Part shown: one piece after another, positions 1 to 38,438 of the stretch
Layout: every line of letters starts with the position of its first letter
Position numbering within the stretch: position 1 is the stretch's first letter
From: Acinetobacter sp. ANC 4862
Lineage (GTDB): Bacteria > Pseudomonadota > Gammaproteobacteria > Pseudomonadales > Moraxellaceae
Length of the DNA stretch: 64,000 nucleotides
Assembly (NCBI RefSeq): GCF_004336635.1
Contig: NZ_SJXH01000004.1
Location: 62,001-126,000, forward strand
Direction of reading: 5' to 3'
Program-made: the position numbers and the translations under genes
Notes under the pieces: generated by a model
Database searches by the model: none
The model's input: the letters and a program-made list of their open reading frames with translations, nothing else
Told to the model about the DNA's origin: nothing

Positions 1-1385
1 GTCGATAATTCCTGAATACACATCTGAATGGATGCTTCACCAGTAATACATACCACTTGCTGATCCGGGAATGCGAGTTTCGCTGCCATTGCATATGGCA
101 AGCCCACACCCATTGTTCCTAAACCGCCAGAGTTGATCCATTGACGTGGACGTTTGTATTTATAGTAGTTTGCACCAAACATTTGATGCTGACCTACGTC
201 CGAAGTAATAATGGCTTCACTGTTGGTGATACGATCAAGTGCTTCAACCACCTGTTGTGGTTTCATTACACCATTTTTACCCGCTTCATAACGCAAGCCA
301 TGTACTTTGCGCCATTCATTGATTTGAGACCACCACGCAGCAATCGCTTCAGGATTTGGCTTAGAAACATTCATTTGTTTCAATTGAACCAGCATCTCTT
401 GAAGTACAGGTTCTACTGCACCCACAATTGGAATATGCGCCATGATGGTTTTTGAAATCGTCGCCGGGTCGATATCAATATGAATTACTTTGGCATTCGG
501 ACAGAATTTTGCTGGATTATTGGTTACACGGTCATCGAAACGCGCGCCTACACACAAAATCACGTCTGCATTGTGCATGGTCATGTTGGCTTCATACCTA
601 CCATGCATACCCAACATACCAATGAACTGCTTATCATTACCCGGGAAACCACCTAAGCCCATCAGGGTATTGGTTACCGGGAAATTTAGAAGATGGGCAA
701 GCTCAGTCAGCAATTCCGATGCATTGCCTTGAACAACACCACCACCACTATAGATGACTGGACGTTCAGCACTGATCAATTCTTCAATGGCTTTACGGAT
801 TTGACCTGAGTGACCACGATGCGGTGGTTGGTACGAACGCATCTTCACTTTTTCAGGATATTCGTAAGCAAATTTTTCTGCAGGATTGGTTGCATCTTTA
901 GGAATATCAACAACCACAGGACCTGGACGACCTGAAGACGCAATATAGAATGCTTTTTTAATAATCCCAGGAATTTCACTGGCATGACGCACTTGGAAAC
1001 TATGTTTCACGATTGGACGAGAAACACCTACCATGTCTGTTTCTTGGAATGCATCTTCGCCAATTAAATGTGTTGCAACCTGACCAGACAAAATCACCAT
1101 TGGGATTGAGTCCATATATGCGGTTGCAATAGGCGTCACTGTATTGGTTGCGCCCGGACCTGATGTGACAAGTACCACACCAGTTTTACCTGTTACGCGC
1201 GAATAGGCATCTGCCATGTGACCAGCAGCTTGCTCATGACGTACGAGGTAATGATTGATTTTGTCTTGTTGAAAGAGCGCGTCGTAAATATGAAGTACTG
1301 CGCCGCCTGGGTATCCAAATAAATGTTCAACGCCTTCGTCCGCCAATGCGCGAACGAGCATTTCACCACCAGATAAAAGTTCCAA
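1..1385 (-). CDS. ilvI: Acetolactate synthase large subunit (5' part, runs off the window)
   Basis: The reverse strand encodes about 461 residues of the thiamine-diphosphate enzyme that makes acetolactate or acetohydroxybutyrate, the first shared step of valine, leucine and isoleucine synthesis. Visible are the N-terminal FGYPGGAVL and [15 protein letters not shown] (the catalytic glutamate of the ThDP domain), TSGPGATN, and the [13 protein letters not shown] and HIDIDP segments of the central domain. At the window edge the Mg/ThDP-binding motif reads TGEASIQM where Escherichia coli has TGDGSIQM. I chose a TTG start (complement of 1383-1385): it gives an N-terminus MELLSGGEM matching E. coli MEMLSGAEM, and GGGTGA lies six bases before it. 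The 3' end, and presumably ilvH, lie outside the window. Confidence 0.95.
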
Positions 1386-2663: not shown

Positions 2664-5309
<2,646 letters not shown>

Positions 5310-32821: not shown

Positions 32822-35461
32822 TTAGGCTTCAACCCATTTCCCATCCTGGAAAACCAGGCTCCACTTGGTTTGTTTCCCTTCAGCATTTTCAGAACCAATA
32901 TACTGCGCCTGATTCTTACGGCTGAATTTCACCAGTGTTGGATTACCTTCTGGGTCTACATCCGGAGCTTTCAAAATAAATTGATATTTCGGATCAAGCT
33001 GTTCAGCTACAGAACGTAGTTCTGCGACTTTCGGCGCACGTGTTTCACGTACTTTCGGGAATTTACTCGCTGCCAGGAATAAACCGGCTGCACCATCACG
33101 AAGAACAAAGAAGTCATCATGTTTGGTTGAACGTAAATGTTCCATTTTAATCGGATCGACACGTGGAGGCGCAGGCTGACCGCTCTTCAACACTTTACGG
33201 GTATTGTCACAACTGGTGCAGGCAAAGTAAGGTCCAAAACGACCCGTCTTAAGCTGCATTTCACCATCACATTTATCACATGGAATGGTTGGACCATCGT
33301 AACCTTTAATTTTGAACTCACCTTCTTCAAGTTCAAAACCAGCACAGTCTGGGTTATTACCACAGACATGCAATTTACGACCACCATCAATCACATAACT
33401 GTCCATTGCCGTTTCACAGATCGGGCAACGTTTTTTCGACATCAAATCAGCAGTTTCTGCTGCATCATCATCAGACAATGCCGCAAGCGACTCAACCGGA
33501 GTCAAGTTCAAGGTACCTTTGCAACGCTCTTTTGGCGGCAAGTTGTAGCCTGAACACCCTAAGAATACACCCGTTGTACCGGTACGAATCTGCATCGGAC
33601 GTGAGCATTCAGGACAATGTACCGCTTCAACTTCAACAGGTTGATTACGACGCATGCCGTTTTCACCCTGTGCTGTCGTTAAGCGTTTTTTAAAGTCACC
33701 GTAGAAATTATTCAGTAACTCTTTCCAGTTGCGCTCACCCATCGCCACTTTATCGAGCTGACCTTCAAGATCAGCCGTAAAAGCGTAATTCATCAGGTTG
33801 TTGAAGTTTTCATCGAGACGATCCGTCACGATTTCACCCATCTTCTCGGCAAAGAGACGACGGTTATCCAACTTCACATAGCCACGATCCTGAATAGTTG
33901 AAATAATTGCCGCATAGGTGGATGGACGACCAATGCCTTTTTTCTCTAATTCTTTAACCAATGACGCTTCGGTAAAACGTGCAGGCGGTTTAGTAAAGTG
34001 TTGAGAGGGATCAAGTTTCTCAAGATTAAGTACTTCACCCACTTTAACTGCAGGTAGCAAAATATCGTCATCGGCTTTGTTTGCACCGCGAACTTTGGTG
34101 AAACCGTCAAAAACTAAAGTACGACCTTTGGCCTTAAGTTCCACGCCATTGGCATCGACTAAAATGGTTGAAGACAGGTATTCTGCCGGTGTCATTTGAC
34201 ACGCGACAAACTGACGCCAAATCAGATCATACAAGCGCTGTGCATCACGATCGACACCGACTAACTGATCACCGTTTAAAGCAACATTGGATGGACGAAT
34301 CGCTTCATGGGCTTCTTGCGCACCGGCTTTGTTACCATAACGGTTTGGCTTGGCTGGAAGATATTTATCACCAAACTCAAGTTCAATGTGATTACGAACC
34401 ATATTGACTGCATCATCACTTAAGAATGTTGAGTCAGTACGCATATAGGTAATAAAACCTGCTTCATACAGACGCTGTGCCATAGTCATGGTTTTCTTTA
34501 CAGAAAAACCTAAACGGGTACTTGCGGCCTGTTGCAGGGTCGAGGTGATATACGGTGCACTTGGATTAACCTTGGTCGGTTTATCTTCACGCGTGGTCAC
34601 TTTATATTCAGCATCGTTCAGAATTTTTAATAAAGCATCCGTTTGGGCTTTATTTTGCAGTTTTAAGGTCTTACCACCTTGTTTGACTGCTTCTAACCGA
34701 ATGTCATCTTTTTTAGATTTGGTATCTGCAAACACCTGCCAGTATTCTTCAGGAATAAAAGCGCGAATCTCACGTTCACGTTCTACCACCAATTTTACTG
34801 CAACCGATTGCACACGACCTGCCGATAAACCGCGGGCAATTTTTTCCCACAGTAATGGCGAAATCATAAAGCCCACCACGCGGTCCAAGAAACGGCGTGC
34901 TTGTTGTGCATTAACCTTATCAAGATCTAAACGTGCTGGCTGTTTAAAGGCTTCTTGAATCGCATTTTTGGTAATTTCGTTAAAGACTACACGTTGATAA
35001 CGTGAATCATCTCCCCCAATCACTTCTTTTAAATGCCAGGCAATCGCTTCCCCTTCACGGTCCATATCCGTTGCGAGGTAGATTTCATCGACTTGCGATG
35101 CCAGTTTTTTCAGTTCAGCAACGACATGCTCTTTACCGGGTAGCACTTCATAGTGAGCTTTCCAATCGTGTTCAGGGTCGACGCCCATACGATTAACCAA
35201 AGCCGTTTGTGCTTTTTCAGCTTTTTGCTCATCGGTGAGTTTGGCACGTGATACAGGCTTTTTTTCTGTACTTTTAGAACCACCTGTCGGTAAGTCACGG
35301 ACATGACCAACGGATGATTTCACAATGTAATCTGAGCCGAGGTATTTATTGATTGTTTTCGCTTTTGCAGGCGACTCCACAATCACTAAGGCACGCTTTT
35401 TCGCAGCACTCGGTGATTTTGCTGTGGTGCTTTTGGATGTAGACCGAGGAGCGTTCGCCAT
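32822..35461 (-). CDS. topA: DNA topoisomerase I (type IA)
   Basis: This enzyme relaxes negative supercoils by single-strand passage. The protein is 879 residues. A lysine/serine-rich tail precedes the TOPRIM domain ([18 protein letters not shown], acidic triad in TDMDREGEA at D132, D134 and E136). The active-site tyrosine is Tyr339 in FITYMRTDS. Three C-terminal zinc ribbons are visible: [13 protein letters not shown]...[20 protein letters not shown]...CGNNPDC and [13 protein letters not shown]...CTSC, followed by a basic C-terminal domain. Compared with E. coli TopA (865 aa) the length is normal. It is transcribed away from the NYN-like pair's side of the cluster, with its own terminator. 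Confidence 0.97.
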
Positions 35462-35496: not shown

Positions 35497-35946
35497 TTAA
35501 AGTTCAGCCAAAGACTGTAAATAGGTTTTGATGTCATCTAACTGTGTTGCTCGAAGGTCAGATTCTTCATCCCAATAGAGTCCTACACAGTTTGCCTGCA
35601 TATCAATAGCATAAATGCCCTTTAATGCAATGGGCAAATCGTTAAACTTATCATCGCCCTGCACAAGCTTTAGCTTTTGATCTTCCACACGTGCACGCAT
35701 TAAAGGCAGACGTGCATCTGGAATAAGTACGCTGTAATAGGCCACCATACTGGCACGCTTTTCAGAAGCCATTGGAATTTTTGTCCAATCGGGAGCTGCG
35801 ACTAAACGTGGGTGCAGTGCCATCTTGCGTGCTTTCTCACGCATGATTCCTAATGCTTTTTCTCGCGGACTGACGCGAAGACCCAAAATCGAGCCCAAAA
35901 CAAATAGAATGATGAAGCCAATGACCCAAATACCGGTATTTTCCAT
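35497..35946 (-). CDS. Conserved membrane-anchored hypothetical protein, 149 aa
   Basis: One N-terminal transmembrane helix (about 5-24, GIWVIGFIILFVLGSILGL) is followed by a soluble part rich in arginine and lysine that opens with SPREKALGIMREKARKMALHPRLV. A later segment, ANCVGLYWDEESDLRA, looks like a folded core. The N-in or N-out topology cannot be decided. Similar small proteins occur beside topA in other Pseudomonadales (recalled, not checked). The gap to topA is only 35 bases, so the two may share a transcript. Confidence 0.65.
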   Translation of the reverse strand: MENTGIWVIGFIILFVLGSILGLRVSPREKALGIMREKARKMALHPRLVAAPDWTKIPMASEKRASMVAYYSVLIPDARLPLMRARVEDQKLKLVQGDDKFNDLPIALKGIYAIDMQANCVGLYWDEESDLRATQLDDIKTYLQSLAEL

Positions 35947-36069
35947 ACTACAACCTTGTCTATTCCTTTATTAGAGTTGCATAAGCTGAATATAAAACGC
36001 AAGCACCACCATCAAAATTAATAATTACAGGATTAAATAAATATACTTATTTATCTGTTTTTATTCATA

Positions 36070-37074
36070 TCATGATGCAATTTCTGAATTTGGCTGTTCA
36101 AGTACATTAATTATGTTCTGAGACTCAGCTAAATAAATAATATCAATACTTGACCAAGCTTCAATCAATGAATCGTTATAAGTCACTTTATTATTTACCT
36201 GAAATACGATTTTTTGTTTTATTAATATATTTAGAAAATCTTGAAGGAACTGTTCTCGATCCAACCGTAAAACGGCTTGAATTGAATTAATTAAGCTCTC
36301 AACTTTAGCTGGTCTTCCTTTCTGAATTTTGATCAAATAATCACAATATTGCTTTATTCTTTGTAAATGAGGTTTTTGCTGAATCTCCTCTACAGTTGGT
36401 AATTGAACAACTAAAGTTTTTATTGTCTCATTCGCTTGAACCGATAGTACTTCCGTCATACGAGCAAGCTCATAACTGACATTTTGATTTTTAATTTGAA
36501 TAAACTGATATTGCTTCAATAATTCAATAGTTTGTTTTATATTCGCACCACTATTTTTCATCCAAGATTTCAAGGCATTATTTAAAGAATTAAATTGCTT
36601 AGGTTGATTTTTTTGTAATAATTGAAGTGCATTTAATAGATGTTTATATTCAGTTTTTTGCAAATCAAGATGCGTTATTTCTAACTTGTTCCCATTACTA
36701 TTAGAAATTTTTTCACGCTTAACTTGCTGTGCTTTAAAACCCATTATTTTTAGTAAATCAACAATATATTCAAATTTTTTATCATTTGACATGACATCAA
36801 ATTCTGTATTTATTTTATCCATTTGAATGGATAATTGTCCTGCTAAAAAGGCTAAACCAAAATCTGCTGCATCTGGTCCCGTTTTCGGCATTTTTATAAG
36901 TACTAATTTTTTTTTGCTAATAAAATCTGCAAGACTCTGTAATCCATCAAGACTCAAGGTCATCGGTGATTTCGCATAAACCAGATACACAAACGCATAG
37001 CTTTTAAGCAACTGGAATAATTCATTTTCTGTTTTATGTAAATTCTCTATATCCAATAATAATATTTTTTTCAT
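36070..37074 (-). CDS. NYN/PIN-like domain protein with C-terminal helical modules (active-site residues present)
   Basis: The 334-residue protein is not a named family member, but residues 1-120 read as a NYN/PIN-like nuclease fold. The fold shows DIEN (Asp8, Glu10) after a first beta strand, GPDAADFGLAFLAGQL (Asp68, Asp71), and VMSNDKKFEYIVDLLKIMGFKA (Asp98) as in the family's D-E-N, xxD and SxDxxF motifs. Two similar modules follow: about 140-205 (LLNALQLLQKNQPKQFNSLNNALKSWM...VSYEL) and about 225-305 (KQYCDYLIKIQKGRPAKVESLINSI...KVTYN). Each is a helical unit ending in a short strand, as in tandem winged-helix or nucleic-acid-binding repeats. A strong GAGGGGA precedes the ATG. The upstream gene is its paralogue, 21 bases away. 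Base composition is more A+T-rich than the neighbours. Confidence 0.6.
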   Translation of the reverse strand: MKKILLLDIENLHKTENELFQLLKSYAFVYLVYAKSPMTLSLDGLQSLADFISKKKLVLIKMPKTGPDAADFGLAFLAGQLSIQMDKINTEFDVMSNDKKFEYIVDLLKIMGFKAQQVKREKISNSNGNKLEITHLDLQKTEYKHLLNALQLLQKNQPKQFNSLNNALKSWMKNSGANIKQTIELLKQYQFIQIKNQNVSYELARMTEVLSVQANETIKTLVVQLPTVEEIQQKPHLQRIKQYCDYLIKIQKGRPAKVESLINSIQAVLRLDREQFLQDFLNILIKQKIVFQVNNKVTYNDSLIEAWSSIDIIYLAESQNIINVLEQPNSEIAS

Positions 37075-37095
37075 GCTTCCCCTCAGGCGATGAAA

Positions 37096-38094
37096 TTAAT
37101 TCAAGAACATCTCGTGACTATACAGCACTTCACTGCCATTCCAGTAGATATATCCCTTTTCAATCAACTCCTTAAGCAACAATCTGACATCAGATTTCGG
37201 GAACATTTGCTCCAGCAAATCCCTCAAGGCATAAATATCTTTCGGCTTGTCCGATTTTAATTCACGCAATTTACGCGCAACAATGACCTGAACCGGATCG
37301 ATTTTAGAGAAGTTTTTAAATAAATCTTTTTGCGCATGATGAATGGGATCTGAATGTTCCAGTTCTTCATCTGAGGAAGATTCTGTCTGTAGTTGAGCAA
37401 AAATTGGAGAAATGTTGGGTGCTGTTTCCAAAGGCGTTGCTTGCTCTAAATCAAGTTGCGTCCATTGTTTTAATAGCTTTTTACGGAAGTTAATTTGCTC
37501 ATCATAACGTTTCACAATTTTTAGATTAATCAGTAAAGCAATCAGCTGCTGTGCTTGATCAGTTTCAACTTGCAAAATGTTACTGATCGAGTTTTTGAGT
37601 TTCTCAATCGAGTTCGGTTTGCCCTTCATTTTACCCAAGGCATCGCAATATTTTTTAACCAACAACAACTCTGGTTTTTGCTTAATGGTTTCAACACTTG
37701 GAAGTTTATATTTTGAATTTAAACAAGGTGCTTCTGGCTGAATTTGAATCAAGTGACAGTTCATGTCTGAGGATTGCATCATCTCAATCAGGATTTCACT
37801 GCTTGGCATGGCAGAAATGACTTCAATCGTCGTGTCAGGTTCTAACAATGCAATCAGTTGCCCAACCACCACCGCATATTCAAATTCTTTGTGATCGACC
37901 TCGGCAGTTTCTAAGATCACCACTTGTCCACTACTCACCCAACCTGAAAACTCGGTTAAATCTTCAAGTGAGTATTCAAACTTTCCTTGGCAGTTAAATA
38001 AGTAAATTACAGCGTAGTGTTGAATAATCTCACGCAACAGTTGTGCGTTAGGCATATTCTTTTCAAGATCAAGAAGAACGACTTTGTTGGACAT
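37096..38094 (-). CDS. Paralogue of the NYN/PIN-like protein with degenerate active site
   Basis: The 332-residue protein has the same layout as the downstream gene: an N-terminal NYN-like domain (LLDLEK, then EVDHKEFEYAVVVGQL) and C-terminal modules, one reading VKKYCDALGKMKGKPNSIEKLKNSI and one reading KLRELKSDKPKDIYALRDLLEQMF...SEVLYS. The counterpart of Asp71 is Glu and the counterpart of Asp98 is lost (ISAMPSSEI replaces MSNDKKF), so catalysis is doubtful. This start follows TTGAGATT; a TTG at 38109 would add five residues and is less likely. It precedes its paralogue by 21 bases, so the two are co-transcribed and probably work together. Confidence 0.6.
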   Translation of the reverse strand: MSNKVVLLDLEKNMPNAQLLREIIQHYAVIYLFNCQGKFEYSLEDLTEFSGWVSSGQVVILETAEVDHKEFEYAVVVGQLIALLEPDTTIEVISAMPSSEILIEMMQSSDMNCHLIQIQPEAPCLNSKYKLPSVETIKQKPELLLVKKYCDALGKMKGKPNSIEKLKNSISNILQVETDQAQQLIALLINLKIVKRYDEQINFRKKLLKQWTQLDLEQATPLETAPNISPIFAQLQTESSSDEELEHSDPIHHAQKDLFKNFSKIDPVQVIVARKLRELKSDKPKDIYALRDLLEQMFPKSDVRLLLKELIEKGYIYWNGSEVLYSHEMFLN

Positions 38095-38192: not shown

Positions 38193-38438
38193 TCAATAAT
38201 GCGGTGGTCGATTGGTCATTGGATCAAAAGCGGCAATTCCATCGGATAAATCGGAAGACTCAATGCGTTGATACAAAAACTGCATTTGTTTTTTCAAATC
38301 AGCGATTTCGGCATGTTGCAGAGACACCTGTTCATTTAATTGTTCAACTAAATCATCTAAAAATGTAATTCGCACTTGCAAATCTTCTATGGGTGCGGAA
38401 AATGACGCCTGATCATTAAGATTTTTTTGTTTAGTCAT
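38193..38438 (-). CDS. slyX: SlyX-like protein
   Basis: The 81-residue protein has a heptad-patterned coiled coil (LQVRITFLDDLVEQLNEQVSLQHAEIADLKKQMQFLYQRI) and ends in TNRPPHY, the typical SlyX tail. SlyX is a small coiled-coil protein first described next to slyD; its role is unknown. Its ATG overlaps the upstream region of uup on the plus strand, so the two are divergent with almost no gap. Confidence 0.85.
   Translation of the reverse strand: MTKQKNLNDQASFSAPIEDLQVRITFLDDLVEQLNEQVSLQHAEIADLKKQMQFLYQRIESSDLSDGIAAFDPMTNRPPHY

Follow-up and report, generated by a model that had tools for sequence, protein, structure and literature searches.

Why would a bacterial genome keep two adjacent nuclease-like paralogues, one with an intact acidic site and one with a degraded site? 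The question is raised by a locus in a 64,000-nucleotide (nt) stretch of Acinetobacter sp. ANC 4862 (contig NZ_SJXH01000004.1, positions 62,001 to 126,000), referred to here as the window. The two genes, which we call P1 (site intact) and P2 (site degraded), lie in a slot between slyX and topA. A first-pass annotation, made from the sequence alone, described them as a cassette of NYN/PIN-like proteins that might form a regulated heterodimer. Our analysis modestly favours another account: P1 and P2 would descend from a tandem duplication, P2 would be a pseudonuclease retained as an adaptor, and P1 would be an active and exchangeable nuclease.

P1 carries an intact nuclease site and P2 a degraded one

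P1 and P2 are paralogues, as first proposed, and both open reading frames were recovered where they had been placed. BLASTP aligns the two proteins over the C-terminal module (E 2e-16, 35% identity over 114 amino acids (aa)) and over about 200 aa of the N-terminal part (E 7e-9). In genome G058, P1 and P2 are collinear over 313 aa (E 5e-16), a repetitive linker included. AlphaFold2 models of both window proteins contain a PIN-like alpha/beta domain of ~118 residues followed by two modules, each with three helices and a beta hairpin. The mean predicted local distance difference test (pLDDT) score is 86.8 for P1 (alignment of 36 sequences) and 80.1 for P2 (alignment of 33 sequences). The predicted template modelling (pTM) score is low (0.50 for P1 and 0.40 for P2), so the relative placing of domain and modules is uncertain.

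P1 matches the Pfam family PIN7 (PF18475, E 5e-15, 56.4 bits against a curated cut-off of 34). A structure search with residues 1-127 of its model returned the MARF1 NYN domain as the best match (6fdl, Z 11.5, root-mean-square deviation (rmsd) 3.0 over 120 aligned residues; 5yaa, Z 11.4), which bears out the NYN/PIN-like fold first suggested. Rae1 (5mq9, Z 8.9), an unrelated hydrogenase domain (Z 8.8) and VPA0982 (2qip, Z 8.6) follow, and FEN-type nucleases (ExoIX, T5) are found at Z 7-8. Neither P1 nor P2 matches the NYN profile (PF01936) at E <= 1; among 36 aligned relatives, 17 match NYN (best 2e-7) and 31 match PIN7.

The acidic site of the window P1 comprises D8-x-E10-N11, GPDAADF (D68 and D71) and SND (D98). 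D8, E10, N11, D71 and D98 are kept in all 24 P1 sequences (the window included; pieces of under 200 aa from genome G421 are not counted), and the D68 position is Asp in 18 and Asn in 6. The D8/D71/D98 spacing (63 and 27 residues) resembles that of MARF1 D358/D426/D452 (68 and 26). Aspartate triads of NYN enzymes are described for MARF1 (PMC11346440; PMC6294520) and, as D13/D118/D143, for a Bacteroides fragilis enzyme (PMC11346440). The P1 PIN domain has a median net charge of +1 (-7 to 4, n=24). P1 is, with good probability, an endoribonuclease.

The Glu and Met that the first-pass annotation noted in P2 belong to a conserved pattern. The window P2 has D9, E11, E70 (replacing D71) and M96 (replacing D98). 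Across P2 sequences, the D8 position is Asp in all 94 that reach it, the E10 position is Glu in 92 of 94 and Gln in 2, and the D71 position is Glu in 93 of 95. The D98 position is other than Asp in 94 of 95 (Met 63, Ala 9, Gln 5, Val 5, others), leaving the fourth position non-acidic and varied, and the positions matching N11 and D68 have drifted (n=95). The sole P2 with Asp at the fourth acidic position is that of genome G409 (L256, P2 at 4186-5202, motif ISSDES), which may be a revertant or an early branch.

P2 also differs in charge and in Pfam matches. The median net charge of its PIN domain is -12 (-15 to -4, n=94); nine non-Acinetobacter PIN7 domains range from -8 to 2. P2 matches neither PIN7 nor any other Pfam family at E <= 1. 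The best conserved part of P2 is the C-terminal module, module B (mean entropy 0.79 vs 1.17 for the PIN domain, 76 sequences). P2 is most likely no nuclease any more.

P2 is inherited vertically and P1 moves between species

We identified P2 in 104, P1 in 25 and neither gene in 61 of 175 Acinetobacter genomes. The P2 count is the 114 genomes with any P2 match minus 10 whose sole match is P1. Stops split the P1 of G421 and G422, and a stop truncates that of G001; these three genomes count among the 25, as does G091, whose relative lies on a second replicon. G412 and G030, with weak unclassified matches, are counted as having neither gene. P1 stands in tandem with P2 in 14 genomes, the three with stops among them, adjoins slyX without P2 in 10, and in 1 lies on a second replicon alongside a chromosomal P2. 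A search of 193 more genomes, from 96 other genera of the order, found no P2.

The two genes usually occur apart, the very observation that the first-pass annotation had named as telling against its characteristic cassette with a regulated heterodimer. P1 is missing from 89 of the 104 P2 genomes (G059 among these has a P1 remnant), and P2 from 10 of the 25 P1 genomes. P1 is found in 15 of 104 genomes with P2 vs 10 of 71 without (odds ratio 1.03, Fisher p = 1, phylogeny not corrected). This distribution rules out an obligate cassette or a VapBC-type toxin-antitoxin pair.

The two genes follow different modes of inheritance. We used a tree of topA, abcF and the 149-aa gene next to topA (MP149) for 116 of the 175 genomes, restricted to genomes with topA and abcF; all genomes with an in-slot P1 were included, and P1 is thus over-represented. 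On this tree, P2 requires 4 changes vs 37.8 +- 2.8 in shuffles; one clade has it in 54 of its 54 genomes, and 12 further carriers lie outside that clade. P1 requires 20 changes vs 22.0 +- 1.4 in shuffles. P2 is inherited vertically, and P1 is scattered almost at random. The correlation of pairwise identity with that of topA is 0.74 across 66 genomes for P2 and 0.38 across 21 for P1.

Synonymous divergence (dS) indicates that P1 has moved between species. For the pair G085/G072, dS is 0.02 for P1 vs 0.69 for P2, 0.84 for topA and 0.84 for abcF, and in all four P1 pairs with dS <0.8 the P1 value lies below those of P2, topA and abcF. Identity between G085 and G072 is 0.98-1.00 across P1, 0.71-0.93 in P2 and 0.82-0.93 in topA, with one slyX-side window at 0.98. 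The acquisition hinted at in the first-pass annotation is thus borne out for P1, as exchange between species.

The A+T-richness noted for both genes was likewise confirmed. Among 38 window open reading frames of >=200 aa (median G+C content (GC) 0.433), P1 has the lowest GC (0.289) and P2 the third lowest (0.382). P1 is A+T-richer than topA in 17 of 17 genomes with both values, and mean GC is 0.322 for P1 (n=20) vs 0.446 for topA (n=94).

Both genes are under purifying selection. The ratio dN/dS is 0.05-0.19 for P2 in 14 of 14 pairs (which are not independent) and 0.06-0.34 for P1 in 4 pairs. That the damaged copy is faithfully kept while the intact copy comes and goes suggests that P2 has a job of its own.

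A proposed duplication with a retained pseudonuclease

In the account that we favour, a PIN7-family gene, encoding an NYN-type nuclease domain with winged-helix-like modules, would have occupied a fixed Acinetobacter slot running from slyX to the 149-aa gene and topA. An early lineage of Acinetobacter would have gained a second copy by tandem duplication. Of the two, the upstream one, P2, whose PIN domain is strongly acidic, would then have lost the last metal-binding aspartate and been kept vertically, working without P1. P2 would act as an adaptor: its basic module A would touch RNA and its dead PIN domain would offer a surface on which proteins dock, next to a highly conserved C-terminal module B. 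P1 would be a nuclease that uses Mn2+/Mg2+ to cut single-stranded RNA under the guidance of two basic modules. As an accessory gene, it would undergo repeated loss, probably through near-precise deletions, as well as passage from one species to another.

The junctions at the locus are consistent with this history. Among P1-less P2 loci, 51 of 81 have just 68-110 bp from P2 to the 149-aa gene (an empty site), and in P1-less relatives the CTTGCGTTTTATATT..CTTATGCAACTCTAAT stretch stands directly after the P2 stop. In several genomes (e.g. G072 and G085; judged by eye), the AATTAATTT found around the P2 stop recurs at the end of P1. The repeat and the short empty sites fit a tandem duplication followed by near-precise P1 deletions. 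On a tree of the PIN domain (a short domain, without support values), P2 branches among Acinetobacter P1s. The P1 proteins of the window, G067, G110 and G416 stand closer to the A. junii-like P1 than to the other tandem P1s, which makes lineage mixing by transfer likely.

Several observations weigh against parts of this account. D9, E11 and E70 rank 21st, 33rd and 34th of 332 P2 columns for conservation, and their near-perfect conservation is more than a pure docking domain would need; possible reasons are a structural role, the binding of one metal, or a contribution to the site of a partner, such as SMG5 makes to SMG6. The best match of the P2 model is a CARF-HTH protein at Z 8.3, with MARF1 at 6.6, a tie of Rossmann-like folds; because the model did not single out NYN folds, the fold assignment of P2 rests on homology to P1. 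The P2 modules have no significant match to a profile hidden Markov model (HMM) of 14 non-Acinetobacter relatives. RNA binding by the modules would be by analogy only, because OST-HTH/LOTUS is unmatched in P1 and P2. P2 is split in G025, perhaps by sequencing error, since abcF is split there too. In two of the four closest P1 pairs, the dS of slyX or the 149-aa gene is equal to or below that of P1. Old losses explain the P1 distribution as well as transfers do, and very recent transfer is seen in one pair only. Finally, sequence similarity suggests that a plasmid, described below, may hold a second degenerate-plus-intact pair, which, if real, would be the best argument for coupling.

Such coupling is central to the first alternative. 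Where both genes are present, a P1-P2 heterodimer is possible, in which P2 would bind P1 and hold it in check, or else complement its active site in the manner of SMG5/SMG6. The tandem order with a 21-nt gap, the retained P2 acids and the acidic P2 PIN domain beside basic P1 modules would fit, as would the precedent of an active/inactive PIN pair (PMC12923823) and the possible second pair on plasmid NZ_CP015111. We consider it unlikely in view of the absence of co-occurrence in the 175 genomes, the 10 genomes in which P1 adjoins slyX without P2, and the behaviour of P2 itself: its acids are kept equally in 82 P2 without P1 and 13 with P1, and its dN/dS in three pairs with P1 (0.14-0.18) lies inside the 0.05-0.19 of other pairs. 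P2 could instead still be a nuclease with an altered metal site, in which Glu replaces Asp and the fourth ligand is dispensable. The near-invariant D9, E11 and E70 and the fourth Asp of the G409 P2 are compatible with this reading, which is made improbable by the non-acidic, varied fourth position in 94 of 95 sequences, the drift at the N11 and D68 positions, and a PIN domain so acidic as to be unfavourable for RNA.

It is also doubtful that both proteins act on DNA as winged-helix DNA binders, with P1 a flap- or structure-cutting nuclease and P2 a transcription regulator. Some of the structure matches to the modules are DNA-binding proteins such as VanR, MepR and BpuJI, and the FEN-type matches of P1 point the same way; however, NYN ribonucleases are nearest by a clear margin, and nearly half of the wider family (17 of 36) matches NYN in Pfam. 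That P1 and P2 are decaying relics without present function is very improbable. Stops disrupt P1 in G421, G422 and G001, a remnant of it lies in G059, and P2 is split in G025, but the low P2 dN/dS, the 54 of 54 clade retention and the P1 site intact in 24 of 24 argue otherwise, and for P2 this reading is already disfavoured. We regard a further possibility as quite unlikely: P2 would have outlasted its enzyme as an adaptor that regulates RNA on its own, and its dead, acidic PIN domain would still build a composite site with any active PIN7 partner, such as P1, that gene exchange brings into the slot. If true, the pair would parallel SMG5-SMG6 in bacteria, with a permanent dead half and an optional active half.

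Organization of the locus

Coordinates of the features are collected in Table 1. The minus-strand order is slyX, P2, 21 nt, P1, the 149-aa gene and topA. The slot between slyX and topA was rightly identified in the first-pass annotation, which did not include the 149-aa gene that also sits between P1 and topA. The name topA follows that annotation, and we presume it to be right.

Table 1. Coordinates of the P1/P2 locus in the window.
Feature	Position	Strand	Description	Basis
P1	36070..37074	-	334 aa; PIN7/NYN-domain protein, acidic site intact; PIN domain residues 1-118	
P1 winged-helix-like modules	residues about 138-206 and 235-304			module HMM
P2	37096..38094	-	332 aa; probable pseudonuclease paralogue of P1; acidic PIN-like domain residues 1-117	
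P2 modules	residues about 141-219 and 263-330			iterated module HMM
P2-P1 intergenic stretch	37075..37095	-	21 nt	sequence
P1 3' flank	35947..36069	-	variable segment followed by CTTGCGTTTTATATT..CTTATGCAACTCTAAT	junction comparison of P2 loci
MP149	35497..35946	-	149-aa membrane-anchored protein between P1 and topA; conserved right-hand slot boundary	
topA (presumed)	32822..35461	-	context	open reading frame and conserved synteny
slyX	38193..38438	-	left-hand slot boundary	Pfam SlyX, 1.6e-16

The P2-P1 gap contains GAGGGGAAGC, a ribosome-binding-site-like stretch that precedes the P1 ATG. The short gap and this stretch suggest that P2 and P1 are co-transcribed. A promoter and terminator scan of the locus gave results below shuffled expectation and was uninformative.

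The 149-aa boundary gene is present in 148 of 149 genus genomes. We examined 40 slots without P1 and P2, and slyX was seen in 34 and not in the fetched stretch of the other 6. In 17 of these 34 the gap measures -4 to 673 bp; 16 contain what are presumably a quinone-oxidoreductase-like gene and one for an HxlR-like regulator, and the last contains a gene for a 295-aa membrane protein. In loci L114, L121, L126, L128, L130, L132 and L133, the P1 position between P2 and the 149-aa gene is filled by other genes, which we take to be HxlR-like plus SDR genes, a gene for a 288-300-aa membrane protein, or insertion-sequence genes. The P1 position is a small accessory-gene hotspot.

Modules, wider family and related gene pairs

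An iterated module HMM, which already contains these modules, finds two copies each in P1 and P2. The HMM of 14 non-Acinetobacter relatives recovers the second module of P1 at E 2.5e-9 and the first at 0.01, with no shuffled control below 0.01. The modules are H-H-H-beta-beta in the models of both proteins, and no LOTUS domain is among the structure matches listed. OST-HTH/LOTUS Pfam families have no match in P1 or P2 at E <= 1. OST-HTH is also absent among the best 25 of 45 families for 36 relatives, and the remaining families match at most one member. Within P1, residues 227-306 in the second module (window 36157-36396, minus strand) match the phage family phrog_25891, of unknown function (E 6e-4).

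The linker between the P1 modules varies. At L116:4931-5064 we identified an in-frame 9-bp tandem repeat with 14.9 perfect copies, encoding an (ETA)n or (ETV)n linker. The same repeat type occurs in P1 of L105, L123, L125, L129, L138 and L139, and repeat number differs between near-identical P1 genes (L123/L129 and L105/L138). The repeat was not found in the window P1 or P2.

PIN7-plus-module relatives occur in Thioploca, Desulfobacterales, Acidobacteria, Planctomycetes and others, and 11 of 229 sampled genomes of the class exceed the PIN7 cut-off. The non-Acinetobacter relatives have a PIN domain and one module, or two in L216. In this Thiotrichales metagenome-assembled genome (L216:4409-6560), an NYN gene (PF01936, 1.8e-22) lies immediately upstream of the PIN7-plus-two-module gene. 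Neighbourhoods of 13 distant relatives, judged by eye, have no neighbour common to the whole set; the desulfobacterial L206 and L217 share one neighbour, and the planctomycete L218 and L219 share theirs.

Two other arrangements resemble the locus. L087:7600-8566 (A. brisouii; also L203) is another P1-type tandem, in which the upstream copy is broken by stops and the downstream copy keeps D8, E10, D71 and D98. On plasmid NZ_CP015111.1 of Acinetobacter sp. TGL-Y2 (252174-254670; L271:6485-8981) and at L090:6175-8671, a PIN7 gene is overlapped by an upstream gene for a 485-aa protein that resembles a very degenerate PIN7 member. The sole Pfam match of the plasmid 485-aa protein at E <= 1 is PIN7 (E 0.093, below the cut-off), and it scores weakly but collinearly for the PIN domain (4.1 bits) and the module (3.0 bits). 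Both scores together are reached by 0 of 742 other non-family open reading frames and 0 of 866 shuffled ones; singly, the PIN and module scores are reached by 1 and 10 of the 742.

Searches for a defence role, which the first-pass annotation had raised as a guess, gave no support. PADLOC has no family at E <= 1 for P1 or P2, P1 has no match in 50,697 phage records, and viral contigs contain no relative of P1 or P2; a defence system was rejected on these results. Among 72,556 plasmid records, one matches P1 and none matches P2. NCBIfam and sequence searches against solved structures gave nothing meaningful for either protein. The first Foldseek matches of the P1 model, and likewise of the P2 model, are Csa3 and CARF-HTH proteins. 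A CRISPR-signalling link for P1 was rejected, as the rmsd of those whole-length alignments is about 14 A, whereas in VIA-align the MARF1 NYN domain leads clearly.

Comparison with known systems

The nuclease domain of P1 is closest in fold to that of MARF1, an animal NYN endoribonuclease with LOTUS winged-helix repeats. P1 and MARF1 also have in common the joining of this domain to repeated small domains and the same kind of acidic cluster (PMC6294520). Unlike MARF1, P1 has 334 aa, no RRM match, modules without a Pfam OST-HTH match, and no known targets or decapping link. The B. fragilis CRISPR-associated NYN protein, according to PMC11346440, is a bacterial, Mn-dependent single-stranded RNase with an aspartate triad, to which P1 can be likened; it is encoded in a type III CRISPR system, whereas the genes seen in the slyX-topA slot include no cas genes. 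VPA0982 and Rae1/YacP share the NYN/PIN nuclease fold with P1, but their chains of ~160 residues leave no space for modules, and their structural match is lower than that of MARF1.

Two eukaryotic systems offer parallels for the P1/P2 pair and for P2. The SMG5-SMG6 composite PIN described in PMC12923823 joins active and inactive paralogous PIN domains, as P1 and P2 might; it is a demonstrated heterodimer of eukaryotic nonsense-mediated decay, whereas P2 mostly occurs without P1. Ssd1 and other fungal RNase II pseudonucleases are dead nucleases kept as RNA-binding proteins with well-conserved accessory domains (PMC8097288). They differ from P2 in belonging to another nuclease superfamily and to fungi, where, as that source reports, function was tested. 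The P1/P2 pair is not named in the literature titles or abstract beginnings that we searched, a coverage that excludes subscription journals.

Eukaryotes are known to retain some pseudonucleases as RNA-binding regulators, and P2 looks like a bacterial case. P2 is a well-documented candidate for a bacterial pseudonuclease with an optional active twin, P1. Its probable history can be traced from intact relatives through tandem duplication and early aspartate loss to a dead copy passed on vertically and a live copy that is lost and exchanged. Acinetobacter thus provides a natural set of genomes that carry, in the same slot, P2 only, P1 only, both or none, and in which what a nuclease does can be told apart from what its dead twin does.

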